From Macrocystis pyrifera (Eukaryota > Sar > Phaeophyceae > Laminariales > Laminariaceae): 64,000 nt of DNA. Positions 1,359 through 54,629 of the stretch are shown here, piece after piece (position 1 is the first letter of the stretch; every line of letters starts with the position of its first letter). Position numbers and translations under genes: made by a program. The notes under the pieces are model-generated. The model saw only the letters and a list, made by a program, of their open reading frames with translations, did not search any database and was not told the origin of the DNA. The stretch is taken from positions 4,079,783 to 4,143,782 of the forward strand of contig JASSKH010000031.1 in assembly GCA_031763025.1 (NCBI GenBank), written 5' to 3'.

Positions 1359-2286
1359 GACTAGACGCGGAATCCCCCTTCCTCTTGACCGCTAACGCCT
1401 GCAAGACCTGCCTTGAAGCAAGTTTATAGAAAATATCTACACGGAATTATACTACTGCGGGATGATGCCCGCAGCCCAATGGCTCTCAGCTCGCATGGAG
1501 GTGCTTTCCAACCACATTTTGAGGACAAACTACTTGAAATTGGAGAAGGATAGTGCCCCCCCCCCCCCCCCCTTAACTCTCGGCCTTTTTAGAGGTTTCG
1601 TTCACCCACGTTTGGGACACTGACTACTATTGACAGGAACGAAACTATTAATAGAATAACCGTGTTCCTCCTGACCCTTCACCCTTATAGAGCCGCCTTG
1701 GACCAACTTTTCGGACGTCAATTACTTGGAATTAGAGTACCATATCACACTAGGGTGATAAGATCACACCCCCTCGGACGATTCTCAAAGCTGGGTTTCT
1801 GCACAACGGAGAGGGCGTACCGAGTACGGCGGGCGATGAGTCTAAAGATGCAACCTTCGCGACGAAATATTTCTAGAGGTACCATTTTCGTTGTGTGCGC
1901 CCCCGATGTTTTTGAGGAAACCGGGTCCGAAATTCGTCCCAGGGGGTGTGATATGTTATCACCCAGTGTGATACGGTAAGATAGCGCCCCTGACGACCCT
2001 CAAAGTCACGCGGAGCTGATTTTCCAACGATGTGTCGGGCACAAACTACTTTGGGAATATGGCAGGATCGTGATTCCCCCTGCTCCTAACCCCTAACCCC
2101 GTTTTAGCGCTGCCTTGAACCAAGGTTTCGGAAATAAAGTTCTTGGAATCGCTGTAGACTAGGATGGTACCCGCCTCCCAATAAACCTCAATCCACATGG
2201 CGCGGCTTTGCTACCGCTTCTCAGGGACAGCATGCTTGAAATTAGTCTACTATTAATACTGGGATATCCCCCCCCCCCCCCCTCTA

Positions 2287-2812
2287 TTATCTACCTGGTA
2301 CATGTATAGGTTGGGTTGGCGTCGGTTGGCGACGACGCTGTAAAACACGCCTCTCACTGCGTGAGCTAGACCGCCAGGGTACCGTTTTTTTCAACTTTAT
2401 TTTCGGCGGTTACCACGGCTGGCGGTCGAGCTAGATCATTTTCGTGCGGGGATAACCTTTGCTCCGCACAAGGGGGATGATCGTATCACGTACTAATAGT
2501 GTGTATATGCTAAGACACCCACGCGGCAGCTATAGATAGTAAACCCATTGCTGCCTCCGCAAGTGGCCACACCAGAAATTAAATCAATTCATTGATGCTG
2601 TCCTCCATATGCAAGAAAATCCGTCTCTAAAGCGGTTCTTAGTAGGATGCAACTCACCCTTCATGCGACTCGCCCAACACCTCACGGCGCTTCTCGCTTG
2701 GTGCAAGCAATGTCTGCCTGATCGGTGAAAACCCGACGGGCTCCGTACCTGCATTGTAGGGATGCGAAGGTCTATGGTCATACGACTACGGCCATGCATG
2801 ATAATGAGTACC
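2287..2812 (+). repeat. ~500 bp dispersed repeat (R500), full-length copy
   Basis: Best full-length copy of a ~500 bp repeat that recurs in whole or part about 14 times in the window. Landmarks in order: GGTTGGGTTGGCGTCGGTTG, a hairpin CTCACTGCGTGAG, a GTGCGG/CCGCAC inverted pair, GGATGATCGTATCACGTA, and a 3' part with AAACCCGACG, GCATTGTAGGGATGCGA and ACGGCCATGCATGATAAT. No protein similarity or pol III box set that I trust. It interrupts the satellite array. Its class is undetermined: non-autonomous transposon, SINE or fragment of a larger element. Confidence 0.75.
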
Positions 2813-3429
2813 CCCGCCCTCCCCCCCCTCGTAACCCTTACCTGGTAGTCCTTTTGGAGGTGTTTTCGCTCACGTTTGAAGCACTACGTACTCATAATTA
2901 GACAACAATCGTAACCCCCTCTCTCCATAACCCCTACCCCTGTTCGAGCTGCCTCAACTTGCGAAGATCAACCATTTTGAATTAGATTAGGATGGTGCCA
3001 GTCCAATAACAATCAAGCCGCATGAAGCTGCTTTGCGACCACTTTTTCGGGTACAAAATGCTCGAAATTAGACTAGGATAGTGTCCGTCCCCACCCTCTT
3101 AACGCTTAGCCCTTTCAGAGGTGCTTCTCACCCACGTTGGAGCTTTAATTACTCAGAACCAGAACAGAATCGTGATGCCCAGTCCTCTTAACCCGTAACC
3201 ATTTGAAAGTCACCTTGCACCAACTTCCACGAGGTAAAACGCTTAGAATTAGACTAGGATGGTGCCCCCCCCTCCCCCTAGTGACCCTCGCGCCACAAAG
3301 AGTTGCTTTGCAAACTCTTTTCTGGGACAAACTCTTCTTGGAAGTACGACTATTAATAGGGCGGTGTCTCTTTTTTTCCCCTCCCCTTTCACCCTTGGCC
3401 TTTTTAGAGGTGTTTTTTACCCACGTACC

Positions 3430-3537
3430 ATTACGGGGGTCCATAGTAAACAGGACCAAATACTGTGAGTAAAAATAAGTATATATATAGGATTTTGTGC
3501 GGACCGCAGGTCCTATTTACTATGGCCCCCCGTAATG
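3430..3537 (-). mobile_element. MITE-1 copy 3
   Basis: Foldback element, left end TTACGGGGGTCCATAGTAAA, right end TTTACTATGGCCCCCCGTAA, reverse core orientation. It replaces part of a B monomer and is followed by CTAGGAATTACACTAG, the normal monomer tail. Confidence 0.85.
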
Positions 3538-4048
3538 CTAGGAATTACACTAGAGCCGTGCTCTGCCCCTCCTCTTAATCCCTACCCCCTTGGAGACCCG
3601 CCGAGAACCAAGTTTTGGGGAACTAACCGCGAGGAATTCGCTTAGGATGCCCCCACCCTAGTTAATGACCCTCATCCTACATGGAGCTCTGCTTTGCTGC
3701 CAATTTCCGGTGACAATCTACTAGAAGTTCGACCAGGACATTATCCGTAACCACTTCGTTGACACAAACTACTACTGCTGTAGGAAGTATAATACAATCG
3801 TGCTCCCCCCCTCCTGTTAACCCCCGATCTCTTTAAAGGCTTCCTTTCACCAACTTTTGGAGAAACAGCTACTTGGAAATAGGCCAAGATGGTGCCCCCC
3901 CCCGCTAATGATTTTCAAAGTACACAGACCTGCTCGGCAACCGCATTTCGGTGACAAACTACTTAAAAATCAGACTAGAATTGTCCCCGCCTCCCCGCCC
4001 TTAGCCCGTTTGGGGATGTTTTTCGCCCACTTTCTTGGCATAAACTAG

Positions 4049-4162
4049 TATTACGGGGGACCATAGTAAATAGGACCTACGGTACACACAAAAAAAAAAC
4101 TATAAATTTACCTATTTTTCCTATCAATATTTGGTCCTATTTACTGTGGCCCCCCGTAATAC
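4049..4162 (+). mobile_element. MITE-1 copy 4, reference orientation
   Basis: Cleanest TA-bounded copy: TA | TTACGGGGGACC ... CCCCCGTAA | TA, inserted in the B-monomer sequence AACTACTAGGAATT at the TA. Immediately right of it are TACCAGGTA and TACAGTA, both TA-bounded microinsertions at the same spot, which suggests repeated insertion and excision at one target. Confidence 0.9.
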
Positions 4163-4614
4163 CAGGTACTACAGTAGGCAGGAATTAGGCTAGAATCGTG
4201 CTCTCCCCCCCTCTCAGCCTCTAATCCCTTTTAGAGCTTGCCTTCAACCGAGTGTTGCGGAAACTGACTAGGAATTAGACTAGGATGGTGCCCCCACGCT
4301 GATGACCCTCAACGTTTCGGAGACAGAGTACTTGAGATTAGACTAGAACAATGTCCCTCCCCTCCCTCCTAACCCTGAGCCCATTTAGAGATGTTTTTTT
4401 GCTCACATTGTTTGCACGAACTACTTGGAATTATAGTAGAATCGTGCTCCCCCCTGAGCTTGACCCCTACTCCCTTTAATGGCTGCCTTGAACCAAGTTT
4501 TGGAAACTTAACTACCTGGAACTAGACTAGGACGGTGCTCCCCCCCAAAGGCACTGTTGTCACATGGAGGTAGGTGCTCCACAACCATCGGGGACAAAAT
4601 ACCTGTGAGGCGTT

Positions 4615-4845
4615 TTACGCTAGAATCACGCTAATTTTCCTGAGGCTCCTCACTTGACCTTAAGGAGCTCCATACCTCACCCGAAAACTGACTTCAGCAA
4701 AAATCAAATCGCTTCCCGATGAATAATCCCCCGGCCCAAATAGAATAATTTTTTTGAAACAAGATTTTCATTCGGACGATTTCGCGTTAAGGAGCCCCGT
4801 CATTCAGAAAACGTCTCGGCGGAAATGTGCTACCTATATCGTCCT
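4615..4845 (+). mobile_element. MITE-2 copy 1 (~230 bp)
   Basis: Member of a second small non-coding family (also at 37763-38010 and 59111-59336). Shared internal words are GAGGCTCCTCACTT, AATACCTCACCCGAAAACTGA-like text and GAAACAAGATT; the ends are imperfect inverted repeats around CTAC.ATAAAGGTTCACGC. It interrupts the satellite array. Ends are approximate. Confidence 0.65.
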
Positions 4846-5219
4846 GCAATTAGGCCAGAATCGTCCCGACTTCCCCTCCCTTAGCCCTTCCAGAGCTAGT
4901 CTTTCCCGCGTTTCGGGTAGACAGTAATCGGAATCAGACAAGATTTGTGACTTGCCCTCCCCTACCCCTTCTGGAGCGTCCTCGAAGCCACCTTCTGGGA
5001 ATGCATCACTTGGAATTGCCGTAAACTAGTGTATGATGGTGCCCACCCCACAAATACACTCAAGTCACATGGAGCTGCTCTGCAACCACCGTTCGGGGGT
5101 TAGCTGCTTGGAGTTAGGATAGACAGTGCCCCACTCTACCGGACAGGACCCTTGAGCTAGACAGAGCTGCTTTGTAACCACATTTCCAGGACGAGGTACT
5201 TCGAATTACATGAGCATCG

Positions 5220-5250
<31 letters not shown>

Positions 5251-5429
5251 AGCCCTTGCACTTTCACTGGTAGCGCTTTTAGAGTTGTTTTACACTCACG
5301 TTTCGAGCTGTAACAGCTTGAAACTAGAACAGAATCGCGATTCTCCGTCGTCTTAACCCGTCGCCATTTAAAAGCTGCCTTGCTCCAAATTTTCTGACCT
5401 GACATCAAGTATTTGGGATCAGACCAGGA

Positions 5430-5469
<40 letters not shown>

Positions 5470-5702
5470 CCAAATGACCCTCAAGCCACACAGAGCTGCT
5501 CTGCAAACATTTTTCGGGGACAAATTTCTTGAAATCAGACTAAGACAGCGCCCTTCCCCCCTATTAACCCTTGGCTCTTAAAGAGGTGTGGGCACTAACT
5601 ACTACCTGGTATGAAATATACTATTAATATATTCGTGCCCCCCCTCCTCTTAATTCTTGTAGGGTGGCTTCGATCAACGTTTACATTTACTGTAACTACT
5701 TA

Positions 5703-5765
5703 AACATATATATATATATATACAATACAATACAATATGCACACACATGTATGTATATACGTATT
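5703..5765. repeat. AT-rich microsatellite
   Basis: A TA dinucleotide run followed by imperfect ATACA and ATGTATATAC repeats inside the satellite array. Confidence 0.8.
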
Positions 5766-6601
5766 TTTTTGCACCCTCCGGCGGATTAGTGAAAATAAGA
5801 CTCATACAGGGATGGTGCCCCCCCCCCCCCCCCAGGGCCCCTCAAGCCACATGGAACTCCTTCGTAACCACTTTTTGGGGACAACTTACTTGGAAATAGA
5901 CTAGAATCGTGCCCCCCCCCCGCCCTTAACCCCTAGCAGGTATCCCCTTTCGTAGTGTTTGTTTGTCAACCCACGTTTTGGGAACCACAGCAAGCACTAG
6001 AGATTCGGCAAGATTCGGGCTCCCCTCTCCTCTTAACCTTCGTCTCTGTTCGAATTGCGTTGACCCATCTTTTCAGAGATTTCGTGCTTGGAATTACACT
6101 AAAGTAGTGCCCCCCCCAAAATATACTCTCGAAGAGCGTAGAGATGCTTTGCAACCACCTTTCGGCGACAAAATACGTGAATCTGGACTGAGATCGTGCT
6201 CCCCCCTCTCCTGAACCCCCAGCTGCCTTCAGAGCTGCTTTGAACCTGCTTTGGGAATTTAATTGCTTGCAGATATACTACTTGGGGATGGTGCTCCCTC
6301 CCTGAAATGACCCTCGAGCCACGTTGAAACGTCTTTGCTAACACTTTTCGTGACGAGCTAATTGAAATTAGAATAGAGTCGTGTCTCCCCGCTCCCCCCT
6401 TGGGAACTCGCGCAGAAGATTATTTGTGACTGCCGTCAACTTGTGTGCGTAGGTGAACGGTATACGTCGGACTTGAGAAAACTTGGAAGCAAATCCTTCT
6501 TGTTTTGGTGCCATTGGAATTTGAAGCTAGCGCAATACTAATTATAAGTCTATTTCGCTTTTTCACCCCATCATGACCCCCTGTATGCGCAATTCCTGGC
6601 C

Positions 6602-6745: not shown

Positions 6746-6765
6746 TGCTGCTGTTTGTTCCATAG

Positions 6766-7027: not shown

Positions 7028-7137
7028 TATTACTGGGGTCCATAGTTAATAGGACCTATGGCATAAATAAAAAACCTGTATGTTTAACTATTTTTACTAA
7101 CAATATTTGGTCCCGTTAACTATGGTCCCCCGTAATA
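7028..7137 (+). mobile_element. MITE-1 copy 5
   Basis: TATTACTGGGGTCCATAGTT at the left and AACTATGGTCCCCCGTAATA at the right, forward core. It lies in the intron between exons a and b; the second unit has an independent MITE-1 copy in the same intron (28892). Confidence 0.9.
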
Positions 7138-12921: not shown

Positions 12922-13276
12922 TTACCGGTATACTCTGTTATTAACTCTGGTTTTGGAATTTGAGAAGGAACAAATGAACACAACAAGTAGCAAGTACAGT
13001 CCCTCTCCATGTCCCGCCTTCACCGAACCGCAGGCTTGATTTTTGTTTGCAAAAAGTAACCGAGGATGGTGCCGACCTCCTCTCGAAGTCCGAGCCATTG
13101 CGCACACAAACTCATACAGCAAAAACAATTGACTACTCACGGCCTGTATTGGACCCCGATAGAAGTATTGCACAATATTTAAACATTAATGCCGCCCCCA
13201 CACACCACACACCTTGCCCCATCTCCTCGTCTCCATGGCCATGCACGGCACCGTCCATTCCGACTGTTTTGTGCAG

Positions 13277-18008: not shown

Positions 18009-18124
18009 CTATTACAGGGGTCCATAGTTAACGGGACCAAATTTTGTTGGTAAAAATAGGTAAATATATACCAGTAGGTTTTTATGTATACCATAGGTCC
18101 TATTAACTATGTACCCCCGTAGTA
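18009..18124 (-). mobile_element. MITE-1 copy 6
   Basis: TATTACAGGGGTCCATAGTT ... AACTATGTACCCCCGTAGTA, reverse core. TACTATTAATACTACTGTA lies ~25 bp to the right. Confidence 0.85.
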
Positions 18125-18449
18125 GACGTCAAGTATTATATAATTGTACTATTAATACTACTGTATGTACAACACAACAGTAGGTTTTACAGTAGTAGGT
18201 TCTACTGTACGGATTCCTATAAAAAATCTTCGTGCACAGTAGTAGTTGTAGTTCACACAGTACCCTATTAAATATAAAAGTCCCCCATGCCTGGTAAAGT
18301 TGTTTAACGCTCTGAACGGAAATGTACATACCGTTTGATATTGATTTTTGTACCAAAGCTGTCCTTTACCTTTATTTCCGTCCAGAGCGGTATCTATCAT
18401 GTCGCCGGATCCTGCTCTATGATGTAATCCGACCGTTTGACATTTTTGG

Positions 18450-18931: not shown

Positions 18932-21900
18932 GTAAGAGAGAGACCACACACAGCACAGCCGAGACAACAGTATCATCGTAGCAAGCAACCCACCGTATCA
19001 CGGATCAGAGCCAGCCGCTTGTTTTAACAAGTATCTCTGTGGCGTAGCTTTGTGACCACAGAACTTGTTTCCCTTCTAGGATTGAAGAACCGGCACGGAC
19101 ACTGGTTGAGTTGCATGTCGACGGGTAGAAAGAACGGCAGAACACACACACAAGGGTCTGGGGCATTTTGGGATGTTGGGATGAGGATATAATCGTCGGT
19201 GAATTATGTCTCTGTGCCCCTCCAAACCAAAGGGAATGCCACATTTCACTCGTGAGCGTGTGTGTGTGCTCTTCACGTGGAACCGTTCTTTCCGGCCTTC
19301 GATACAACAGGCACAGCTACTCAGTCAGTCTCCGTGCCGATCCTTCACCGTAGAGAGATACCGGCTCTCTCTCTGTGAACGTGAACTACGAAACAGAAGT
19401 ATAGCACTCTGACACTCTGTTCTTGTGCATCCGCGTACATTGCAGGATACGATGCGCCGGAATTTTCGATAGCTGTTTGGGTATGGTACCACATCATGAT
19501 CGTCTTCTTTAGTGCATCCAGTGCTTTTCAATCAGGCAACACTACCACTCACACACCACCACCCACCCCTCACGCGCCCTGTGGCCACGCGCAACCCTCT
19601 AGGAAGACGCGTGTACAATAAGCAGCAGCAGCAGGTAGGAGTAGGAGAAAAAATAGTGTATTCGGCTCCTATGACCGGTCTTGTAATCACTTCGTGTATG
19701 AATGTTACCTGCCCTTCGCTTGCCTTGCTTTTCGGTTTGCCGTGACTGCCTGCTGTATGGCTGTTGGTATTGACATATAGGGAACACACAACAACAGTTT
19801 TTATTATTATTAGGCTTGCCATCCGACAGTGTCCGGCATGAGCTGCACCGTTGATCAATCAAAACATTTCTGAAATAAGAAATACCTGGATACAAAGGAA
19901 ACCTATGCACAAGGTCTATCTATCGTCTGTGTCTACTTCCTTTTATGCTCTATCTACGATACTCTATGTGTTGTCTTTACTCCTTCCTATATCTTACTAT
20001 GAACTCGCCACTTTCTATTGTACAGTAGTAGTAGTTATTTACCCACATCGTGTGTTCTCTTCCGAACGGCTTGCCCCCATCAAGATCAACTGCATTACAA
20101 AGCAGCTACTCGTAGCGCAGAGAGAAAAAGAGAGAGGGCTGCCCTAGCTCGCGAGAGGTCCGGTCGATGTCGTCGTCGGCACTTTTCACGGCGGTTCATG
20201 ACCTTCTTGTTGGTGTTGCATCGCCTCTACTTCTTACGAGTGTGAGTACATACATGCTGTTTCTGAGAGTCGTCCACGGTACAACGATTTTTTTTCAAAT
20301 TTTCCAAAAAATGTACAAAAATTCCCCCGTGGTAGGGGGGTCAAACTCCAACTTTTTAATTCGTATAGAGTTCCTACTATTAATATACCCCCCGGGTTTG
20401 CTTTTCATCCCCTGACGTTTTAGGAGTGTGGTGCAGTGATGGACATCGGGGTCGAGATCGCCAATTTTTATCGCGATTTTCCCCTTTTTAATTCGGGAAT
20501 CGCAGATTAGGAATTCGACGTGCCGATCCCGATCCTACATCGAGATCTTGCGATATTTATATTTTCCTCCTTCCCTCGAGAACGCTCACAGCACACGTTT
20601 GTCTGTACACGTAGCTGTATAGTGGCGTGAGTGTGCGGGGTCGTTTGATAATGTTTTTTTTGTTGTGTACCCTCGGAGTCGCATGCAGGTAGTATTGTAA
20701 ATATTTAGATTACACCCGTGTCTGCTGGGTACCTGCTGCTCATGCTCGTCTGTCGTTTTGTTAACAATAATTGTGCATGTTTGGTATCTACCCCCTGTTC
20801 GGAAATATTGAGCGCGTTCATGGCTTGGGGTGGATGTCACAACGCACTCTACATTTCCGAACAGAGTGGGATACTCTTTTTTCGTATTGCCTCGCCGTCC
20901 TTCCCCTCTCTCTTGAGGTACTACGTACTGTATACTGCTGTGCGAGTGCCAGGTAGTGGTATACCATACTGCCTGGACGGGACTGTAATCCCCACTTTAT
21001 AATGACACCACAAGATACCAAACGGGCCAAAGATTCTCGACCAGATTGCCACTGCTGTACGTCTACATTGACATCCCAATTTTTAGTTGAAAAATATGTA
21101 CAAGGCGACAAAAACAAAAGCACAAAAAAAAACTGATTGACGGCACTCTTGCCGTTATCCTTGACGGACAGTCGTCATGATCAGATCCTTGACGGACAGC
21201 TGGCCAGGGCATCTCTGCACTAAAACGGATATATTTAGAGTAAAGCGGCCTTGACGGGCCAAAAACATCCCGGCATCTTGTCATCTTTGAGAAGACGCGT
21301 CAAGTTGCATCACTTCTTTAGACCGTTTGGGGACGGACCCAGTTGCCACTTGCTGCTGCCGTGCGCACGGCGACAATGCATAATACGGGTGCGATCTATT
21401 CGGGCGTGTGGTTTGAGCGTGCAGCACAGCCCAGTACGTCTAGCACCCTGCTGCGCTTGTGTGGTACTTTGTACCAGTAGTAGAGCACGGAGCTGCTCCG
21501 TGCATTGCGCATGGCGCAGGCTGTTGTTGCAGTCTGGGCGCATCCGTTTCCCCTCCAGTAGGCCGGACTGCTACAGCTACTAGCAGCAGTATGAATTAAA
21601 TAGTACTGACTTGCAAGTCTTGTAATCTATACAACAGACAGCAGTCCTGGTGCTCCGTCATATTTCCAACCATTTCTGCCTCTGAGAAGCCCGAGAAAGA
21701 TTCAACCATTTTTGCCTCTGAAGCCCGAAAAGAGGATGTCGAACAAACGGAACAAAAAAATTACCTGCTTGTGCTGTACTGTACTGTGCTGTACCTGGTA
21801 TATACGACGCTGCGTAGATATCGGTCGGTGCGTATCTCGCCCCCAAGGGCCATAATCGACAACATATCCGAGGAAAGGGTTATTCTGCGGGAGCGATACG

Positions 21901-22740: not shown

Positions 22741-22811
22741 GTATGTTGCTGTTCGGAATAGATGGATAGGTGAATATTCTCCCGCTGATCCTGTATACAG
22801 AATAGTACCAA

Positions 22812-22927
22812 CTATTGCGGGGGACCATAGTAAATAGGACCTATGGTACACACAAAAACCTACCAGTATATATTTACCTAGCTTTAGCAACAATATTTGG
22901 TCCTATTTACTAGGGTCCCCCGGAACA
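22812..22927 (+). mobile_element. MITE-1 copy 7
   Basis: TATTGCGGGGGACCATAGTA ... ACTAGGGTCCCCCGGAACAC, forward core, slightly decayed right end. In the intron after exon c. Confidence 0.85.
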
Positions 22928-23054
22928 CCAATCTGTCCCAAAATTTAAGGTCCGCTTGCGTCTTGTCACGAAAACCGAAAATCACCTCATATTTATGGAC
23001 AGAGTTGCTCGTTTGTAGGGGCATCTTGTAATCCTGTGCGCGTAGGGAGTTCAT

Positions 23055-23285
23055 GACGTCGAGACCGGCGTGCCACATTCATCCCAATATGCTTGCTACA
23101 GTTGTATATATCATACAAGTGAAACACGGTTTCCATATTTCTACGGCGTGAAAATGCGCAATCTTGAATTTTACACAGTCACAAACGGCACATCTGTTGG
23201 TGTCGTTGTTGCGTTAATACCAGGTACAACCCATCAGTTAGACCACAATTTGACGCATCATGCCTACATCGTACCTATCCATTCC
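23055..23285 (+). repeat. Left flank of satellite, copy II
   Basis: Paralogue of positions 1-199; marks the start of the second unit of the ~23 kb tandem duplication. Contains TACCAGGTA at 23218 where copy I reads TACCAGTTG. Confidence 0.7.
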
Positions 23286-23939
23286 CGAAATTAGTTAGGC
23301 TATCCTTGCGCACCCCCCCCCCTCTTTCCACCCCTCTTGAGCCCTTTTAGAGGCGTTTTTCACTCACAATTTGGGCACTAACTACAAGCAAATAGATAGA
23401 GTAGGGTCGTGCCTCCTCCCTCCTATCAACTCTTCGCCTTTTTTTACGGCTGCCTTGAACCAAGTTTTCGAAGACAGACTGCGTGGAATGTGACCAGTGG
23501 TAGGATGATGCCCGCCCCGAATCGCCCTCGAGCCACATGGAGCTTCTTTACAAGCACGTTTCAGGGACAAACAACTTGAATTTAGACTAGGACAGCAGTG
23601 CCCCCCTCGCTGTTAGTCCTGAGCCTTTTTTAGATGTTTCAATTGCCCACGTTTGGCCACTACCGCTGTAACTGCTAGCAATTCGACTAAAATAATCGTG
23701 ATCCTCCCATTCCTCGCCCTTTTTTAGAGCACCCTCGAGCCAACTTCTCGGAGACAAACTAGGTACTCGGGATTAAACTAGGATAGTGTCCCCAATGACA
23801 CTCAAGTTACGTGGAGGCTGCTTTGCAACCTCTTTTCGAGGGCAGAGTATTTGGAATTAGACCGGAATTGTGCTCCCCCCTCCTCTTAATCCGTACCCCT
23901 GTTAGAGCTGCCTTGAAGCAAGTTATTGGGAACTAACTA

Positions 23940-24050
23940 CTATCACGGGGGGCCATAGTAAATAAGACCTACGGTACACACAAAAACCTGCCTGGTATAA
24001 CACCTATTTTTACTAACAATACTTGGTCCTATCTACTATGGTTCCCCTTG
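23940..24050 (+). mobile_element. MITE-1 copy 8
   Basis: TATCACGGGGGGCCATAGTA ... CTACTATGGTTCCCCTTG; right end eroded. Inserted at the TA of AACTACTA in a satellite monomer, the same target as copy 4. Confidence 0.8.
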
Positions 24051-24114
24051 CTAGGAACTAACGTAAGATGGTGCCCCTACCCTAATGACCTCCAACCCAC
24101 AAGGAGCTTCTTTG

Positions 24115-24231
24115 CTACTGCAGGGGACCACAATAAATGGGACCTGCGATACACGCACACAAAAACTATATATTTTTCTTATTTTTACCAGATATATTTG
24201 GTCTTATTTACTATGGTCCACCGTGATACCA
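24115..24231 (+). mobile_element. MITE-1 copy 9
   Basis: TACTGCAGGGGACCACAATA ... TTTACTATGGTCCACCGTGA, forward core, inside a satellite A monomer that resumes with CCACTTTTCGAGGACAAAAT. Confidence 0.8.
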
Positions 24232-24389
24232 CTTTTCGAGGACAAAATACTTGGAGTTAGAGTACAATCGCGCTTCCTCCCCGTCATAACCCCTAACCCC
24301 TTTTAGCGTTGTACCAGGTTTTTGGTACATACCTGGTGACTACTTGGAACTAGAATACGATGGTGCCCCCCCCCCCCCCAATATTAAAT

Positions 24390-24884
24390 ACCTGGTAGAT
24401 AGATAGGTTGGGTTGACGTCGGTTGGCGACGACGCTGTAAAACACGTCTCTCACTGCGTGAGCTAGACAACCAGGGTGCCGTTTTTTGTTTTTTTTTGGC
24501 GGTCACCAAGGCTGGCGGTCGAGTTAGGTCAATTTTGTGCGGGGAATACCTTAACTCCGCACAAGGGAGATGATCGTATCACGTAGGTGTGTATATGGTA
24601 AGGCACCCAAGAGGCAGTTGCATAGTATGCTCGTTGCTGTCTCTGGAAGTGGCCGCACCAGAAAATAAATTAATTCACTAACACCGTCATCCATAAGCAA
24701 GAAAATCCACCTCGGAAGCGGTTCTTAGTAGGATGCAGCTCACCCTTGATGCGACTCGCCCAACACCTCACGGCGCTTCGCGCGTAGCGCAAGCAATGTC
24801 TGTCTGGTCGGTGAAAACCCGATATGCTCCGTCCCGGCATTGTAGGGATGCAACAGTAGGGCCGACTACGGCCATGTATCACCC
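24390..24884 (+). repeat. R500 repeat, full-length copy
   Basis: Near full-length, beginning right after TACCTGGTA at 24390 as the 2287 copy begins right after the same word at 2292. Same landmark order; ends ACTACGGCCATGTATCA and resumes satellite. Confidence 0.75.
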
Positions 24885-24885
24885 T

Positions 24886-25070
24886 GACATCACATAGAGT
24901 TAATTTGCAAACATTTTCTGGGACAAATTACGTGAAATTAGATTAATAGTGCCCCTCCCTCCCTTTTGTAACCTCTCGGCCCTTTACGAGATGCTTTACA
25001 CTTACGTTTGGGGTACAAACTACTCGGAATTACTCTCGACTTTTGCTCCCCCCTCTTCATAGCCCTCCTG
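24886..25070. repeat. Satellite array 2, part 2
   Basis: A and B monomer remnants between two R500 copies (AGTTAATTTGCAAACATTTT, GTTTGGGGTACAAACTACTC). Confidence 0.7.
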
Positions 25071-25550
25071 TATTGTATACTTGGTATATATATGTTGGTT
25101 TGGTGTCGGTTGGCGATGACACCGTAAAACACGCACATTACTGCGTGACCTAGGCAGCCAGGGTACCGTTTTTTTTCTCTTTTTTTTTTGGGGCGGTCAC
25201 CACCGCTGGCAGTCGAGGTAGGTCATTATTGTGTGGGGAGAACCTCAACTCCGCACACGGGGGATAATCCTATCACGTAAGGTGTGTATATGGTGAGGTA
25301 CCCACGAGGAAGTTACATGGCAAACCCATTGCTGTCTCTTGGAAGTGGCTGCACCAAAAAATGAATTAATTCATTGACGCTGTCATTCATACGCAAGACA
25401 ATCCGCCTCAACAGCGGTTCCTGATGGGATGTAGCATATCCTTCTTGCGACTCGTCCAACACCTCACGGCGCTTCGTGCGTGGTGCAAGCAATATCTGCC
25501 TGGTCGGTGAAAACCCGACGTGGTCCGTCTCGGTATTACAGATACGCGAG
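25071..25550 (+). repeat. R500 repeat, first of a tandem pair
   Basis: Starts near ACTTGGTATATATATGTTGG and ends CGGTATTACAGATACGCGAG, where the next copy begins without spacer. Confidence 0.7.
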
Positions 25551-26045
25551 GGTTGGGTAGGCGTCGGTTGATGACGACGCTGTAGAACACGCCTCTCACT
25601 GCATGAGCTAGACAATCAGGGTACTGTTTTTTTTTTGGTGGTTACCACGCCTGGCGGTAGAGTTAGGCCATTTTTGTGCGGGGAGAACCTCAACTCTGCA
25701 CAAGGGGGATGATCCTATCACGTAAGGTGTGTACCAGGGGTATGGTAAGGCACCCACGAGGCAGTTACATACCTGGTAGAAAATTCCATTGCTGTCTCTG
25801 GAAGTAGTCACATCAGAAAAAAACCAATTCATTCACGCTGTCATCCACATGCAAGAAAAACGGCCTCAAAAGCGGTTCTTAGTAGGATGTAGCTCACCCT
25901 TCATGCGACTCGCCCAACACCTTACGGCGCTTCGCGCTTGGTGCAAGAAATGTCTGTCTAGTCGGTGAAAACCCGACGTGCTCCGTCCCGGCATTGTAGG
26001 GATGCGAGGGTCTATGATCTTACGACTACGACTATGGATGAGATC
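25551..26045 (+). repeat. R500 repeat, second of a tandem pair
   Basis: Directly follows the previous copy; the head GGTTGGGTAGGCGTCGGTTG is fused to the preceding copy's tail. TACCTGGTA occurs inside at 25770. Confidence 0.7.
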
Positions 26046-26417
26046 GAGTACAACCCCCCCCTGCCTCCCGACGGACCCTCACGTGACACGTAGTTGATTT
26101 GCAAACATTTTCTGGATCAAATTACTCGAAATTAGACGACGATAGTTTCCCCCCCCCCCCCCCCCCCCCACATTTGACGTCTTGGCCCTTGAAGAGGTGT
26201 ATACACATACGTTTTGGGCACAATCCACTCGGAATTACGCTCGAATTTTGCCCCCCCCATTTGTTTAGTCCGTAACGCTGTTAGAGACGCCTTATCCCAC
26301 ATTTTCGGAAATTACCTACCTGGAACTAGATTAGAATAGTGTCCCTCCCCCCCCTCTTAGCCCTCAGCCCTTCTGAGGTGTTTCTCACCAGTGGTTTGGG
26401 CACCATTTGCTCGGAAT
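26045..26417. repeat. Satellite array 2, part 3
   Basis: A, B and C monomers with a C-run of ~23 at 26147-26169. Confidence 0.75.
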
Positions 26418-27335
26418 TAGCTGTGTTGCACTCACTGCCCATAAAACACAAAAATAAAATCCCGACAACACAGACACTGGAACCACATATGCTCCCGTTC
26501 TTTTTCCTGCAGGACGTTTCGTTTTTCTGCCCTACCTCCGAGCGTTCTATTGAAGGTACTGTTTGTCAGAGCAGATATGAGCTCTTTGGTGCACTGCCGT
26601 GAGTTCGCCAAAACGACAGCCTTTTCTGTTTTCTCATCCCAGGCGGACCTCGTCGCCGAAGCTTGAAAACATGGTTCCAGGCGCTTGAATGCTCGGTACC
26701 TCGCACTGTGGCCAACCTTTTTTTTTTTTTTCCTGCTGTAGAACGAGCAGGAGGAACGCAGGAGGAGCTACTGCTGTATGTACTCGTACAACACCAGTGT
26801 AGAACATTTGCTCCGTTGTTCTCTCGCTGCTCTGTCAAAGGACACAGCCAGTCTACAATGTCAACGCCAGCGCACTGCGTATTGTCTGTGTGTGCCATCG
26901 GGAGAGAAAACTGAGTTCTTTGGCATGTTTCTACAGGCGCAAGCGAGATCACGCAAGCCGAATTGTGTGTGTACGGCATGTTGTGAGCGGCTTCCGCGTT
27001 CCTCCTTTTCGCTATCAAGCTGAAAACGTATATACTTGGCTACAGTATGAGAAACTGAATAATCGAGCGCCTGGAATCACATGTTCAAACCTCAGCGACG
27101 AGGTCCGCCTCGAAGGAAACGGAAAGTGCTGTCAATTCGGCGCCCTCACGGGAGTGCACCAAGGAGCTCACATCTCCCCCGCCAATGTTTGGCTTCACTA
27201 GAGCGTCCGGAACTACTATTATTAGTAGGGCAGAAAAACGAAATATCCTCCAGAAAAAATATCGGGGGCAGACGTGGTCCCAGTGTCTTTGCTGACGGGA
27301 GATTTGGCGATGTATGTGTTTGTGAGCAGTGCAGC
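26418..27335. repeat. Inverted repeat, ~280 bp arms, ~355 bp loop
   Basis: Left arm 26418-26700 and right arm 27055-27335 are reverse complements at roughly three-quarters identity (shared: TTTCGTTTTTCTGCCCTAC, GGCGGACCTCGTCGC, TTCCAGGCGCT). It sits within satellite. A frame reading RRGPP..HGSAP.SS is open in both arms, on opposite strands, so a duplicated exon fragment cannot be excluded. I do not recognise it. Confidence 0.7.
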
Positions 27336-28470
27336 ACAGCTGATATTAGACTAGAATCATGCTCCCTCCTCTTGATCCTTGACCCCTTCCAGACCTGCCT
27401 TCAACCAAGTTCCTTGTGCGTTAAGTACTTGGAATGAGACTGGGGCGCCCCCACCCTGATTGGCGACTCTCAACCCACATGGAGCTGCTTTGCAACCTCG
27501 TTTTTGGGCACTAACTACTGGCTAGCAGTTAGGCTCGAATCATGCTCCCCCCTCCCCTTAACCATCGATTCCTGTTGGAGCTGCCTTGAATCAAGCGTTT
27601 GGGAAATTGACCACCTGGCACCTGCAATTATGCTAGGAGGGCGCCTCCACCCTGAAGACTTTCAACCCACATGGAGCTGCTTTGCAAGCACGTTGCGGGG
27701 ACCGACCGCTTGGATTTAGACTACTACGGGGGACCACAATAAATAGGACCTACGGTACACACGAAAACCTACGTGCTTACCTACTTTTACTAGGAACCTA
27801 CAGGTTTACCTACTTTTGCTGGCACTATTTGATCCTGTTTACTATGGTCCCCCGTAATAGGAGAGAGTAGCGCTGCTAGAGGGGTTATACACCAACGTCC
27901 TTGGCAAAGACTACTACCACTCTGACCCAATACATAAGGATCGTTTGGACCGAATATTTATGTGCGAACTGCGCCTATATTTCGAGTCAGACTGGTAGGA
28001 ATTACGCTGGGATCGTGCTGTCCCCTCCTCTTGACCTCTCACCCTGTTGGGGCTGCCTTCAACCCACTGCTAGGACACTACCTACATGGAATTACACGTG
28101 GACGGTGCCCCTCCTCTAACTCTAAAGGCTAATGGCCCTCAAACAATAAAGTTACGGTGATGCTTTGGAACCTCTTTTTGGGGACACACTTCTTGATATT
28201 AGACTAAGATAGCGTTCCCCCCCTCCTCTTAGCCCCCAGGCCTTTTATAAAAGTGTTTCTCATACACGGTTTGGGCACTAACTACTAGGAATTAGACTAG
28301 AATTGTGCTTCCCCCTCCTCGTAACTCGGTCTTTTCGAGCTGCTTCGAACCCACCTTTCAGGGACTAACTACTTGGAATTAGAATAGAATAGTGCCCCAC
28401 TCCAATCCTCAAGCCACATAGAGCTCCTGTCCAACCCTTTTTCACGGACAAACCGCTTTACTTTGTTCTG
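27330..28470. repeat. Satellite array 2, part 4
   Basis: Ordered A-B-C monomers up to 28470, holding MITE-1 copy 10. The array ends ~300 bp before exon a of unit II, as in unit I. Confidence 0.8.
27722..27860 (+). mobile_element. MITE-1 copy 10, longer variant
   Basis: TACTACGGGGGACCACAATA ... TTTACTATGGTCCCCCGTAA. About 25 bp longer than other copies through an internal duplication of the ACCTAC.TTTACCTACTTTT segment. Confidence 0.85.
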
Positions 28471-28770
28471 GGTGTTGTTGCTCCCCTCCTCTCACTGACG
28501 AAGCAGAATACTTGTAGCTCTCGTCGATGATTGGGCGTTGCTGGACGGCGTACGGCATACGGCATACGTGGGGCTTCAGGCAACTCGCAAGGGGGTCGTT
28601 CGGTTTTTGGGCGCCGCACAAAGTTTAAACTCGCACATTGTTTATATTACTTATATATATAGCTGTATTACCCCTTCATCACCCTTTAGGCGCATATGAT
28701 GGCCCAATCCCTCGCTGCTGCTGCTGTTGCTTTACTGCGGCGTACCGCTATGCTGCTGTCCTTTCCCAAG

Positions 28771-28891: not shown

Positions 28892-29000
28892 TATTACGGG
28901 GGTCCACAGTTAATAGGACCTATGGTATGCATAAAAACCTACATATTTGCCTATTTTCACTAACAATATTTGGTCCTATTTACTATGGTCCCCCGAAATA
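28892..29000 (+). mobile_element. MITE-1 copy 11
   Basis: TATTACGGGGGTCCACAGTT ... TTTACTATGGTCCCCCGAAATA, forward core. In the a-b intron but at a different point from copy 5, so an independent insertion. Confidence 0.9.
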
Positions 29001-29290: not shown

Positions 29291-29604
29291 GTACGCACAA
29301 TCGTACGGTTTGGTTTCGCCATTGATCCTCCTGGAACTTCCGAAAATACGTGAGTTCGTATACGTGCGACGTATTTGGTCTATTACTTACTGTACAAGCC
29401 CTCTACAACAGTACAAAACACTGCATTGTCCTGGTCCAGGCTAGTTTTTTTTTATTAAATCCCGGCTCACGCCAGATTGTTTTTTTTAATCCTTTGTTCG
29501 CCATCCGCCAAAGTGTAGCGTGAGCTTCAACGTTGATCACCGAAAAACATAAATTTCGTTCGAGAAAGGGTGTGCTCCTCACGAAGGGGCTCATAGTATT
29601 AATA

Positions 29605-29712
29605 TAACGGGGAACGATAGTAAATAGGACAAAATATTGTGAGTAAAAATAGGTAAATATATAGGTTTTTATGAATACCATAGGTCCTGTTAACTACGGA
29701 CCCGCGTAGTAG
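29605..29712 (-). mobile_element. MITE-1 copy 12
   Basis: TAACGGGGAACGATAGTAAA ... TAACTACGGACCCGCGTAGTA, reverse core, decayed. TATTAATA occurs immediately left at 29597-29604. Confidence 0.75.
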
Positions 29713-30545: not shown

Positions 30546-31531
30546 TCTAAAAAGGATAAGCGTGGCAGCGTCAACGGAAAAAAAAATGAACGACAAGGCC
30601 TCCTTCTCAGATCGCGTAGTCGAAATTGGCCAGCAGCTGTAGATCACTCGTCGTGAGTTAAGCCGGTTGGTGCTGCTAAATAAAACAGTACAGGCTTCGG
30701 GGACCTTGTAGTCTGTTCTCGAAGGAACCAATACGAAGTGTACGCAGCACATGTACGCCAAGTTTAGTAAGGGGGATCAACCACGAAACACGGCCTGAGG
30801 GGAAAACGGGTGTAGAATAGAAAAAAAATCGCGAATTCTCCATACTTCCCGCCCCCCCGCGACGGACGTTCTTTTGTTTTGTTTTCACGGGCTGATTGTG
30901 GTTGACTGTTGGACGGGAAACAAAGGCGATCAGGGCTTGGGTGGCCGACACGGAAGACAGGGAAACAAAACGTGATTCCCCCCATACGTTTCATCTCCCG
31001 GGTGGTAAAGTGTTTTTTTTTGCGTCGCTGATTGTTGTCAATGGTGGGGTGGTAAACGTGCTATTATTTATGCAAGGTTCCCCTTCAGGATTGTGGCTAG
31101 ACTCTCCCAGGTGCCCACTAAGTAAACCATAGTTAGTTTGATGACGGCACGGCAAGAGAGTCAGAGACAGCCCCGACTATGGTGGAAGAAGCGAACCGGG
31201 TTCGAACCGGTACACGAAAACTTGAGAAAGAAGTGTGGACAGGGGTTTCCTCTCGCTCTCCGGGGCGCTAAAAAAACACCAAAAAAAGAAAAACCAAAAA
31301 AAGATTGTGGGTGACTTGAAATCTCGGAGGTGTCGCACGCGGAAAAGGGGGGGGGGGGGGGTGACACACCGCGCGTTCGTTCCTCGTATCAGCTACTCGT
31401 GCGTAGCCGCCGGGCAAGAACGAAGCGCATGAATAGCTCACGAAAGCTAAAAGAAAAATGAAGTAGCCACTGGGAAAGTATCCGGGCAAGAAACACCGAC
31501 CAGCCGAAATGAGGGAATATTAATAGTGCAC

Positions 31532-34033: not shown

Positions 34034-36660
34034 CACTGCGAAGCACCTGAGTCTTGTATCGATTCCAAGTAGTTTGGCCGGAAAAGCGCGAGAGCAGTTC
34101 GATCAAAAAGGGTTGACTCATTCATACCTGCACCCGTATTTTCGCAGAAACAGTACATAGACTAAAGTTGGGATGAATTTTTGCAGTGGTAAAAGAGGTA
34201 CGGCCCGTCCTCGACGGCCTGTCTGGGTCGCTGCGAACGAGTTCAGCTTTAGTCCTCGGCTGATTTATGACGGCGCGCGAAATCTGCAGAAGCACGTAAA
34301 AAGGTTGAACCCTGTGCTCGGTGGTCTCTCTGGTCGCTGCGAACGATCTTGCTTATTTGCCCCAAACCTTCATTTTGATCAGAGATTTATTGTGGTGTGG
34401 TGTAGAGTTGGGAGGGGGGGCTGGTACATTCCGGTGTGGTGTTGTGTGGCGTGTGGTAAATGTGGTGGGATGGTTGGAATACTTTTTTTTGTCTCAAGCT
34501 TTTTAAGAGGGAGTTAACGGTGCGGTTATGGTTGTGCCCTACAGTACCGAAGTCCCGACAGTGTTGGCATCCAACCTTTTTACGTCACGCGTATAGCTGC
34601 AAATATTGTGTTACTCTGAATTCAGCTCGGTTCTCCCTGAAGCGTGCATGCTGCCACTCTTATGATAGTTGTACGTGCGCGAGTGGGGTTGAGTGCACCG
34701 TTCTGAGAGTCGTTACGGCAATGTTGGCATGTTCCGCCGTATCGAGGCAACACCATCAGTGAATGCCGCGAAACGAAAACTAACCGGCCGGCTTTAGAAT
34801 GCCGCCGCAAGCACCATGCAGTCCTTTGCCTTAGAGGCAGCACCTTCAGTGACTGCCATTTTAAAGGAAAACCAACCCCATTTTTTGTTTTCGAAATAGG
34901 TCACGCATGAAAAATAACAGGTACATACACTTTAGCCGTGAGATCGATTTCATCTTCGAAAATCATCTTTGCAATCGAGTAACTCTAAGCTGTGTGTGGT
35001 AATTCGGACACACAAAACTGCGGATGCCATTGTGAATGCACGGTGTTGCTAGCTGTGGGGCTTCCAGGCGCCGGGGGGGGCGGGGGTTCTTTGAGCATGC
35101 AGAAACACCGGAGCGGATTTCGCTCAGCCATATGTGTTGAAGGATTGAACCGCTCGTTGTTTCCTGCAGTAAGTTGGTTTACCTGCTAGCAACGTTGGGA
35201 GGTGCTGCCGTTTTTTGTTGTTAGGGCTATGTTTCGCGTTTTTTTTATTAACTACTATGAGAGGCCTTAGCCAGCCTCGGCTGTGAGGTCGACAATTTCG
35301 TCGAAACTCAGCTATGCAAGTTGGGCTATGTCGTACATATAATCGCGTGTTTTGCTGCTGGTTTCATGTTTAGTGTGGTATTGATTTACTATTTTGGTAT
35401 GGCTTGACTTGGCTTGGTTTGGTTTCAGTTTGATGTCTTAACATTGTCGTGTTCTAGTCCGACTTAGCAGGAGGTTTTACGCTCGGCGATTCCGCATTAA
35501 ACGCCTATCTTTGGCCTTCGCGTGACGAGATACTTTGCATTTTCTCAGCTCCTCGATTCGTATCGAATTTTCCTATTAATAGCCCACCCAGACGTACGCT
35601 TTTATTATGACATATGTCTGGCCATCATGCCTACCTGGTGCGTCAGAAAATATGTACTTCGTGCGTGCTGGTTGTAGCTTGTTGCGCACTGAGGTTGTTG
35701 GAATACTGAGCCTAGAAATCCTTAACAGCACAGTTGATGCGGGGCCACTGTGTAGATCGTATATCAAGGCTCTTAATTAACAACGTGTTGGGATATTGTG
35801 CGTGAATTCCCTGGCTCCATGCATCTGATCGATGTGCAGCCGCTAACAAATGACGCTGGAACACCCGCCTTTTTTCGTGTGTCAAGGCCTCTGTTGGCCT
35901 TCGTGTGCTGGTTTTAGTATAGGTCGGCGGTCAGGAAAAGGGTCAACCCGCGGTCTTCCGGCAGCTTCGATCACTCCTCAGCAGATCAACGGCGAAGCTT
36001 GGAATCTGGTAGAATGTTGCTCGTCGGAGCTCTTGATGTTAACGCCTCGAAGCGACTGCATGATTTCAACTACTGTATTTCTCACTCCCTGTGTCGTGAT
36101 ATCGACCAACTCCAGAGTGCGCACTGATCAGTATCAGGCTGTTTGTCTAGATTCAATTAAACTCCTCGTGGTGTCGCGATGTACCGTACACAATTGCTGG
36201 AGGTGGAAAGGCAGCCTAAGCATTAACACGAGGAACTACTCGGACGACTTTGAGAAGGGGGATGAGAAAAAGGGAGGGTGGTGAGGGGGGTGAGGGGGGG
36301 GGTAGGGTAAAGGGAGAGGGAAGGGAAGAGACGGAGGGAGAAGGGAAGCCAAGGGAAGGGCGCGCGGAGAAATGCGCAGCGAGGCCCTTACATACCAGCT
36401 ATTGCTGTCGTTTTGTGCCTTGACCCTTGACCTTTGTTCGTGACGCGAAGGACGCAGATGGCATTTTGCCATATCGCCCCACAATGGCTGTTGTGTCACT
36501 AAAGTCGTCCAGTGCAGGGAGTTTGCTGTGGTGATGCTCAACTCTATGAGTCTGGGTTAATTGGCTGTGCTAGACCGCTCCGCGATGGTTGCAGTGGGAG
36601 GGTATGATAGAAGCGAAGGGCATCACATCTCGGGAAGGAGGGGGTATGCAACGCACAGCC
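34034..36660. other. Conserved non-coding downstream of gene B
   Basis: Aligned to 13466-16120. No conserved open frame. Contains the degenerate GGGAA tract near 36310-36362 and a T-rich block near 35230. Confidence 0.55.
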
Positions 36661-42059: not shown

Positions 42060-42122
42060 CGCGCGCCCCCTTCCCTTCCCTTCCCTTCCCTTCCCTTCCC
42101 TTCCCTTCCCTTCCCTTTCTTG
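42060..42122. repeat. (CCCTT)n pentanucleotide tract
   Basis: Reverse-complement counterpart of the GGGAA tract of block A; confirms that this part of D is inverted. Confidence 0.9.
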
Positions 42123-52038: not shown

Positions 52039-52147
52039 TATTACGGGGTTACATAGTTAATAGGACCTATGTTATACATAAAAACTATATATTTACCTAT
52101 TTTTACTAACAATATTTGGTCCTATTTACTGTGGTCTCCCGTAATAG
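52039..52147 (+). mobile_element. MITE-1 copy 14
   Basis: TATTACGGGGTTACATAGTT ... ATTTACTGTGGTCTCCCGTAATA, forward core. In the loop of the inverted duplication. Confidence 0.9.
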
Positions 52148-52533
52148 TACTACTTTGGATCTAGAACAATAACTCGATCTGGCAGTGTCCACGACGCCGA
52201 GCTATATACTTATCCTGCATAAGTGTTTGTATTCCCCTTGCTTCTCAGGTGCTTCCTTCTCGGCGCCATTTGCCGCTCCAATGATCGTTGGGAGGGCGCT
52301 CTCGCTCCCACAACAACGGCAGCAGCAGTCTCAACCCCAACAGAGGTTTTGCCCTTGTCGTCGTCACTGTTAGCCCCGTCAGGCTTGCCTGTAGTTTTGC
52401 GATGTTTATGATGATGATGTTACACAGTAGTATCAATAGTCTTAATGTACCCCGGGGTCACGAGCTATCTGCCACACAGCCGCTGCGCTTTCTAACTATG
52501 GTGTAAATTGCAATCCCTCGTTATACTGTTCAG

Positions 52534-52659
52534 CTGCTTGAGCTTGGTCAGCACAAGGGGCTGACTCCAGTTGATGTTGCTGCGCGTGGACACTGCTGTG
52601 AGCGACTGGTGGCGCCCAGCACCTCCAAAATAAATCACATACCGACAAACCTCGTGTGA
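52534..52659 (+). CDS. Ankyrin-repeat-like last exon
   Basis: After CTGTTCAG the frame reads LLELGQHKGLTPVDVAARGH then CCERLVAPST and stops at TGA. GLTPVDVAARGHCCERLVA fits the ankyrin consensus (G.TPL..AA..GH.E.V..LL), with LLELG as the end of the preceding repeat. Only one repeat is visible; 5' exons are not identified (a weak candidate is 52249-52370). The stop follows directly, so this is a last exon or a decayed fragment caught between the inverted arms. Ankyrin repeats mediate protein-protein binding; no partner can be inferred. Confidence 0.5.
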   Translation: MLELGQHKGLTPVDVAARGHCCERLVAPSTSKINHIPTNLV

Positions 52660-53767
52660 CACCCCCTGTTCTCTGTCCGTTGGCTATCCAGGCGTTGGGG
52701 AAATGCTGTAGTTTTTGTCGAACTACATGCGGTTCGAACAGACGGCGGGTAAAAAATACTGCGACACGTGCGACGGTCGTGCTCCGACGTTAAACAAAAA
52801 ATGGATGGTCCAGACCCCATCCCCTAATGGTACTGAAGCCTTCCACGGTCAGGTTTCAAACCTGGTGCACATTACTATCGCGGCGCTCACAACTCAGAGC
52901 AAAGCAACTGGAATTGTACCCAATCGTGACTTTCCGCCCAGCAGGCCGAGTTCGAACAGGGCTGACTAAAACATGACCCCTCGAACAAGGGAATTCGCGA
53001 CCACCAGCACCCTTGGGCTTTCAACGTGTTGTCCGGTTCACCAAAAGGCTGGGCGTGGGTTGGCTGAGATCCGGGTGACAATTCCCCAAGGGAAGCGTGC
53101 TTGTGAGGGGCGTTACCCATCCCAAAAGAATTCGTGAACACAGGCGAATTCAGCAGAAAACCCTACGCGTAGCCGCAACCTCCCAGACGGGCTTAGGCAA
53201 CGGATTCACAGGCAAGGTGTGTAGGGTAGGGTCGATGGTCGCGGATTTGTGCGAGCGTACGTGGTAGGCTTGCATTTCCCTTGTATGGTGGCCGAGGAAA
53301 GACGCTGATGGGTTGTGCGTATCTGCGTTTAAATGTTCTCGCTTAGAGACTGCAACGTACCTGGTGCTGAGTTTGTCACGGGGGAAGATTTTTATGTCAC
53401 ACATTTGGTGGCCAGCGATCCAGTTCTCAAGGGAGGGGCGATTGATAAACCGAAGTACCACATAATCGACTAAACTAGAACCCTATAGAATTGCGTTTTG
53501 CCAAGTATCCCGTCGTGGATTGCGGTGTCTCACTCGTGAACCTCGCACTTTGTCTTGCTGCTGTTTTGTAGCCTCTTCTACTCCGGATGTAGAACATCGA
53601 AGATTGGAGACTCTATCGTCGGGGAACTACTACCACGGAACATTTCGTCGAGGACAGTTGAATTGCAGGTTCAACATGCAACCTTCGGGACATCATCTGG
53701 CCCGGTCTACAGGTGACTCGCAAAGTGTGTACCAGGTATTGATACGAACAGGGTGAATACTAAAGTG

Positions 53768-53880
53768 ATTCAATAGCTGCGGAGCACTCTGGCAAGAAAG
53801 TGCAAGCGACGTTTGCCCTCGATGTCGGCAAATACACAAGGCGTGTGCGGACCTCTTTCTGTCTCAACAATGCTAAAAAA
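53768..53880 (-). CDS. Possible short terminal exon
   Basis: Minus strand after GACTGTTTTTTTAG, reading IVETERGPHTPCVFAD then IEGKRRLHFLARVLRSY, TGA. The 3' half is duplicated in the left arm near 50622 (ATCGAGTGCAAAGTTGCTTG). Weak: one copy only is open. Confidence 0.2.
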
Positions 53881-54629
53881 ACAGTCAAGTGAGTCTCCTT
53901 TTCTTCCTCTGCTCATAGCCGCCGCGTCTGCCCACCCTCTCCAACAACCAACCCCCGACCCCCCTCCCAAAAGCTGTTTATGTATGCACATGGAACTCCC
54001 GTGCATAGTTCTTCGCGTTCCTATACGAGCTGCTGCCATCATCTTTTAATATAGAAAGTGCATTTTCAAGCCCATCCGCCTTGACATAACAACAAGGAGC
54101 CAGCGATCACGGCAGCGGCAACTTTCCAGACGAACGATGTCCTTGCCGTATGGTAAGAAGAAGCCTAGATATTTCCCTATCCCCCCCCCCCCCCCCTAAC
54201 CGACCCGGGTTTCACACCCAAAATAAGTACTCCTTCAAATTCTCGTTTGTCGACATTTTGCATCCCCGCACACCCCCGAAGCAAACTTGTACCGTAATGA
54301 CCAACGTTCATCACCTCACCGACCCTCACGAACTTTCGGCTGCACCTAGTTGTTTTCAGTCAGAAGCGCGTTAGCATTTCGGGTGCCAAAGGCCCAGGGA
54401 TATGAACCAAGGAGTTTGTTTTCTTTTATTTTCCTCATGGCTCGTTCACAGCTCTTACAAACAATATTTGGTTTAATGCTCGGGCGCACCTGTTACCTCC
54501 GCAGACGATACACGATGAGACCAGAGCAAAATAGAAGGGATGGTACCTACTATTAATACTGCTGTTTATGTGTGGCTTGTCCAGAGGACCGCTGAGGGTC
54601 AACCTTCCTTCGACAGAGTTACAGCAGGG
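53881..54629. other. No recognised gene
   Basis: Contains a C-run at 54181-54196 and TATTAATA at 54551. Nothing else. Confidence 0.4.

Follow-up and report, generated by a model that had tools for sequence, protein, structure and literature searches.

TA-bounded words in the giant-kelp genome as probable excision scars of miniature inverted-repeat transposable elements

Excision scars in other systems and probable scars in kelp

Of the two halves of cut-and-paste transposition, excision is the more difficult to count after the event. For Tc1/mariner enzymes, 3-prime overhangs and scars derived from the element tips are established (PMC8151067, PMC4561436; here and below, the comparisons draw on parts of the cited papers). 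In intron 4 of the Triticeae beta-amylase gene, Stowaway scars consist of 1-4 end bases between two TAs, several scars occur at one site, and a new element stands at a TA beside an old scar (PMC1925063). Here, we analyzed a 64,000-nt stretch of Macrocystis pyrifera (the window; contig JASSKH010000031.1, positions 4,079,783–4,143,782; GC 49.7%) that carries a non-autonomous miniature inverted-repeat transposable element (MITE), MITE-1, of ~106 bp with the structure TA|TTACGGGG...CCCCGTAA|TA. The palindrome TATTAATA is very probably the usual repair scar of MITE-1, and the TA-bounded words TACCTGGTA and TACCAGGTA are probably scars of CCA-ended elements.

The kelp case resembles Triticeae Stowaway in the TA-flanked MITE, the end-derived scars between TAs, the multiple scars per site and the reinsertion beside a scar. 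However, the Triticeae data concern one intron across species, whereas kelp has three words in one genome and 94,130 TATTAATA sites. CTCCCTC ends are listed for the rice mariner elements (PMC4423477), whereas those of MITE-1 are TTACGGGG, and Stowaway ends of the CTCCCTC type were not found on it. Sleeping Beauty and other Tc1/mariner elements share the TA target, the cut inside the element and the end-joined tip scars (CAG in Sleeping Beauty) (PMC8151067); the kelp ends are instead TTA and CCA, and the kelp enzyme is putative. Excision of the Stowaway-type element 14T32 in yeast also involves element-derived overhangs, end joining and footprints, and it is experimental, whereas the kelp events are deduced from sequence alone (PMC4561436). 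A genome-scale catalogue from orthologous comparison of Asian and African rice contains 94 putative excisions; the rice scars are mostly irregular, in contrast to one recurring exact word in a single kelp genome (PMC4423477). Scars vary with element and host: those of zebrafish ZB measure 0-3 bp (PMC7913693) and those of Hsmar2 are non-canonical (PMC3770610). MITE scars of this form, several per site, and reinsertion beside a scar are already known; the kelp case stands out by its scale. No publication that deals with kelp scars, or that treats scars as over-represented words of a genome, was present among the matches listed, which mostly did not cover subscription journals.

TTAATA insertions at TA and their empty counterparts

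The window contains ten copies of TATTAATA against 0.4–1 expected. The ten coordinates given in the preliminary description are all exact, and the excess over about one expected holds in both controls: 100 dinucleotide shuffles gave a mean of 0.54 and a maximum of 3, and Markov models of order 2 and order 3 predict 0.43 and 1.06. Among the 43 strand-paired A4T4 words in the window, TATTAATA ranks third after the simple repeats TATATATA and ATATATAT. The excess recurs outside the window: 20 stretches of 10 kb, taken from the same contig without selection and comprising 198,218 readable bases, contain 27 copies against 3 of the reversed word. In the whole assembly (537,376,219 bases in 223 contigs; the published genome is described as 537 Mb, 223 contigs and 50.37% GC, PMC10498591), 94,130 sites stand against 7,522 of the reversed word. 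This total counts sites and not events; it includes duplicated copies, such as the near-identical loci L002 and L003 of the additional DNA that was fetched, and the two strand counts of the palindrome are identical sites. The sites and the satellite that serves as their recorder are as follows (window positions; no strand is assigned to any feature listed in this text).

200..6420, divergent satellite array of A-B-C monomers of ~88 bp each, 79% identity of aligned columns to the 265-base trimer consensus
22800..28480, second stretch of the same satellite, interrupted by inserts, 75% identity of aligned columns
1646..1653, TATTAATA footprint in a B-type satellite monomer, 6-base insert relative to the consensus GACTAGAAT
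2251..2258, TATTAATA in the satellite, part of a compound 12-base insertion, not clean
3351..3358, TATTAATA footprint in an A-type satellite monomer, 6-base insert TTAATA at GACTA|GG
5622..5629, TATTAATA footprint in the satellite, with TACCTGGTA at 5603 of the same monomer; 6-base and 7-base inserts, each at TA
18150..18157, TATTAATA with one TA in common with a TACTACTGTA word, ~30 bp from a MITE-1 copy
20378..20385, TATTAATA with flank CCTAC|TA, without a copy for comparison
29597..29604, TATTAATA with its second TA serving as the left flank for a MITE-1 copy
31518..31525, TATTAATA with a MITE-1 copy 10 bp away
35574..35581, TATTAATA footprint in a segment that is duplicated; the copy 12946-16118 (74% identical) has a 6-base gap here and reads TG for the TA
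54551..54558, TATTAATA with flank CCTAC|TA, without a copy for comparison

Six TATTAATA sites have an empty counterpart, and each of them is a TTAATA insertion at TA: 1646, 3351, 5622, 35574, L001:941, where the aligned copy has exactly TA, and one site in a dispersed repeat. The insertions in the satellite, the duplicated segment, L001 and the dispersed repeat all have the form of an element-derived footprint between two TAs. It had been claimed that four of the sites lie in satellite monomers whose neighbors show the empty site. This is correct for 1646, including its empty site GACTAGAAT, and for 3351 and 5622, all three of which carry TTAATA relative to the consensus, whereas the 12-base insertion at 2251 is unclear. 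In the two arrays of the window, compared with the trimer consensus, TTAATA is the commonest exact short insertion besides C runs (three cases, all at TA), and it is absent from the consensus monomer. The word is common across the genome, and its being common at non-TA-duplicated positions had been named as a point against the reading; yet the six sites with an empty counterpart are all insertions at TA. The strongest example is the dispersed-repeat site, where the empty copies read TTAC-TAGTCG (L017:4630) and TTAC-TCGTCG (L010), and the filled copies read CTACTATTAATAGTCG (L013) and TTACTATTTAATAGTCG (L017:340), one with TTAATA and one with TTTAATA. Such a pair is expected if one shared insertion was excised independently in different copies. 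Of 41 TATTAATA sites, 2 could be matched to an exactly empty copy; among 127 sites of five control words, there was no exact match and there were two near ones, at ATGWCAT.

MITE-1 itself is represented by the following copies.

1252..1356, in the satellite; the consensus site GGAATTAGACTAG has a single TA and no TTAATA
3431..3535, in the satellite, TTACGGGGG..CCCCCCGTAA, with flanks CA and TG instead of TA
4051..4159, in the satellite, both flanks TA; the right TA starts a TACCAGGTA
7030..7135, outside the satellite, both flanks TA
18012..18122, with an inner TACCAGTA
28894..28998, both flanks TA
29605..29709, adjoining TATTAATA
52041..52144, both flanks TA

A profile built from eight window copies gave 29 non-overlapping matches in the fetched DNA; L003, being nearly identical to L002, was excluded, and one or more of the copies contributed two pieces to the count. 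TA flanks 45 of the 52 MITE-1 ends in the eight classes listed, which is a TA target-site duplication, and the terminal inverted repeats are TTACGGGGG..CCCCCGTAA. The window contains 100 TA-flanked inverted pairs, which include many MITE-1 ends and AT repeats, against none in three Markov controls. Because the satellite insertions sit at consensus sites with one TA, the leading TTA is part of MITE-1 and not of the target. A C precedes the TA at 31 of 45 MITE-1 ends and 39 of 80 TATTAATA ends, compared with 13/84 TACCWGGTA ends and a background of 6,105/27,738. The TAC|TA flank preference is therefore common to MITE-1 and TATTAATA and not shared by TACCWGGTA, and it is partly due to satellite sites sharing sequence. 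In three MITE-1 matches (window 29607, L008 and L013; 0.17 expected), a flanking TA is at the same time one of the TAs of a TATTAATA. From the sequence and these flanks, we infer that the TATTAATA scar derives from MITE-1 itself. piggyBac, which duplicates its TTAA target and excises without a scar, does not fit: MITE-1 duplicates TA, and TTAATA is extra sequence when compared with empty copies.

Three MITE-1 copies carry inserts at one inner TA: two of them (at 18069 and 22861) have TACCAGTA or its complement there, and a third copy, near 23990, has a CCTGG-like insert; these are possibly shorter scars at one favored spot. In the satellite at 200-6420, several monomers have long C runs at one monomer position, the longest of ~40 bases (94% pure). 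A ~0.9-kb satellite insertion at 26410-27340 has long imperfect inverted ends (CTGTGTTGCACT..) and possibly ATTAG repeat flanks; by eye, it is no TA element.

Further TA-bounded words and a proposed excision mechanism

The preliminary description took MITE-1 as the source of the scars. This is supported for TATTAATA, but MITE-1 is not alone, since at least two other words behave alike. TACCWGGTA (TACCTGGTA or TACCAGGTA) occurs at 15 window sites from 2292 to 58596 against 0.5 expected, mostly with unrelated flanks; two of the 15 (2292 and 24389) come from copies of the same repeat. The 20 unselected stretches contain 25 copies against 1 reversed. Repeat families other than the satellite can also serve as recorders. 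An exact empty copy exists for 3 of 42 TACCWGGTA sites.

2839..2847, TACCTGGTA footprint in the satellite, 7-base insert at CCCTTA|GCCC of the consensus
5603..5611, TACCTGGTA footprint in the satellite, 7-base insert at ACTACTA|GGAA of the consensus
25770..25778, TACCTGGTA, gaps of differing length in four window copies
53730..53738, TACCAGGTA, 7-base gap in the copy 50621-51681, where the TA reads TG
57662..57670, TACCTGGTA, exactly TA in the copy 19149-19752
3773..3782, TACTGCTGTA, the third word, 8-base insert in the satellite
1740..1976, MITE-2, 237 bp, TA|CCATATCACACTAGG..CCAGTGTGATACGG|TA, within a satellite monomer, right end CCG
27917..27995, MITE-3, 79 bp, TA|CCACTCTGACC..GTCAGACTGG|TA, within a satellite monomer

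The third word, TACTRCTGTA on either strand, is found 13 times in the window (296, 3773, 18156, 18188, 20021, 26769, 50538, 52029, 58616, 60490, 60888, 61417 and 62771) and 20 times against 0 reversed in the unselected stretches. TACTGCTGTA is a clean CTGCTG+TA insertion at 3773 and at L012:8135, and 1 of its 20 sites has an exact empty copy. Among the words of 8 to 11 bases in the window whose flanks are unrelated, the excess is highest for pieces of TACCWGGTA, TATTAATA and TACTRCTGTA, with other words lower. An unbiased word scan of the 20 stretches excluded simple-repeat words and left unscored those with <5 occurrences or <2.5x expectation. For 8-, 9- and 10-base words (29,857, 84,546 and 132,569, respectively), the first three ranks go to pieces of TACCWGGTA and TATTAATA; among 10-base words, the fourth rank goes to TACAGCAGTA, which is complementary to TACTGCTGTA. 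Scar-like words of two or three families are among the strongest over-represented words in the sequence examined. The TA-flanked, CCA-ended elements MITE-2 and MITE-3 are candidate sources of TACCWGGTA on the basis of their ends. Across all loci, MITE-3 has six near full-length matches with variable tips, a left end CCA in 3 of 6 and TA at 9 of 12 ends. No convincing TA-flanked source with CAG/CTG ends was found for TACTRCTGTA; an inverted pair in L010 starts in a CTA simple repeat and shows no transposase-like open reading frame by eye, a library search not having been made.

The following mechanism probably accounts for TATTAATA and TACCWGGTA. A putative transposase of the Tc1/mariner type, encoded elsewhere, would excise MITE-1 by a short staggered cut. 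On one strand, the cut most likely falls 3 bases within the element at either end, so that a single-stranded TTA would remain on each side. These tails would pair through their self-complementary TA, and fill-in and joining would then give TA-TTAA-TA. At CCA-ended elements (MITE-2, MITE-3 or their kin), the tails would be unable to pair, and their facing A:A mismatch would be resolved to A or T to give TACCAGGTA or TACCTGGTA. Multi-copy repeats, including the satellite, would then show scar insertions of 6 or 7 bases next to copies into which no element had inserted. In TACCNGGTA, the middle base is T in 10, A in 5, G in 1 and C in 1, that is, T or A in 15 of 17. Among four registers for TTA tips, TTAA alone is clearly enriched (10 vs 1.06 expected; TTWAA, 2 vs 0.6), and CCWGG is the enriched register for CCA tips (15 vs 0.48).

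Excision of Tc1 and Tc3 leaves two bases at each end. The preliminary description proposed the same for MITE-1, and a 2-base cut at each end, with TT/TT tails filled and joined, is a tentative alternative that we regard as rather unlikely. It yields TTAA exactly, and one study deduced a 2-base overhang of mariner-like elements from the two bases that they duplicate at the target (PMC4561436). However, it is one route only. A 2-base cut fails to give TTTAA, a single case in which a slip in the T run is possible, and CC ends would lead to CCGG (2 vs 0.5 expected) and not to CCWGG (15 vs 0.5). Because TTAA, TTTAA and CCWGG would all follow from 3-base tails, whereas a 2-base tail gives TTAA only, these words favor the 3-base stagger.

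Two additional TA-flanked inverted-repeat elements were observed at 60019-60335 (ends TGTGCAGCTRCATCCTG, 313 bp) and 40993-42574 (ends CTCCTTTTGG, ~1.6 kb). TACWGTA occurs 26 times in the window against 7.7 expected and resembles the CAG scar of Sleeping Beauty; the excess may reflect a CAG- or CTG-ended family, for which no source was found. It is not claimed as a further scar: a copy is available for only 22 of the 83 sites across all loci, and the 22 comprise 1 exactly empty, 2 nearly empty and 10 shared cases.

Other readings, age of the probable scars and further observations

TATTAATA could also be read as the unused preferred target (TATTA|..|TAATA) of a TA-duplicating element CGGGG..CCCCG. 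An occupied TATTACGGGG..CCCCGTAATA is divisible either way, and the TAC|TA flank preference does not discriminate. However, the satellite MITE-1 copies at 1252, 23943 and 27724 sit in consensus sites with one TA and no TTAATA, and TATTAATA itself is an insertion relative to other copies, once alongside TTTAATA at the same site. This reading is strongly disfavored, and we consider it highly improbable. It is just as hard to credit that the words are selected regulatory or structural motifs, or polymerase-slippage insertions unconnected with transposons: palindromes often serve as binding sites and only 19 of 536 short insertions between copies are TA-bounded, but neither selection nor slippage predicts the insertion with an extra TA, the mostly unrelated wider flanks, the presence in the satellite or the MITE-1-like target preference.

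Several points weigh against the derivation of TATTAATA from MITE-1 and of the other words from related excisions. The preference for C is weaker at TATTAATA scars than at MITE-1 flanks (P 0.04). Of the 41 TATTAATA sites, 32 are without an aligned copy in the fetched DNA, and the nine alignable ones comprise 2 exact empty, 1 near, 1 other gap, 2 shared (L002/L003) and 3 ungapped; the dispersed-repeat site belongs to these nine and is clean only after realignment. Its TTTAATA could be a mere slip in a T run, being a single case. The 536 short insertions include 28 bounded by TT, more than the 19 bounded by TA. A 60% identity filter on both sides fails 1646, 3351 and 5622, as well as 5603, probably because other differences lie nearby; 49 insertions pass it, four of them TA-bounded (CCTGG, CTGCTG, CCGCTG and AAGT). 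TACTRCTGTA fits no simple pairing rule and is without a source element. Loci L001-L004 were chosen for carrying TATTAATA. Irregular scars with deletions or filler were left out of the scar counts, and rice excisions are mostly of this kind, with 8 of 94 'perfect' (PMC4423477).

Scars with a common TA occur in six places (two in one L024 cluster) against ~2 expected, so that elements seem to return to a TA used before. For TATTAATA, single-base variants number 92 against 82 expected, and for TACCAGGTA, 98 against 41.5, which suggests, roughly and on a noisy AT-rich background, that the MITE-1 TATTAATA scars are younger than the TACCAGGTA scars. There is about an even chance that the giant-kelp genome is a dense, readable archive of excision, in which several TA-inserting families have left scar sites by the tens of thousands. 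These sites would obey a single rule, the joining of 3-base tails in whichever register pairs best; their ages could be ranked from mutated neighbors, and they would show revisits to the same TA. Departures, and not only resident elements, could be counted, placed and roughly dated, and they would offer natural data on the way in which short, non-matching DNA ends are joined in a brown alga.

Searches for the MITE-1 end in viral contigs and of Rfam at gathering thresholds gave 0 matches each. In Pfam, searched with 10 of the 24 stop-to-stop open reading frames of at least 150 aa, only the triose-phosphate transporter family matched at E 0.1, and the frame concerned lies at 62616-63137 (E 1.8e-8).

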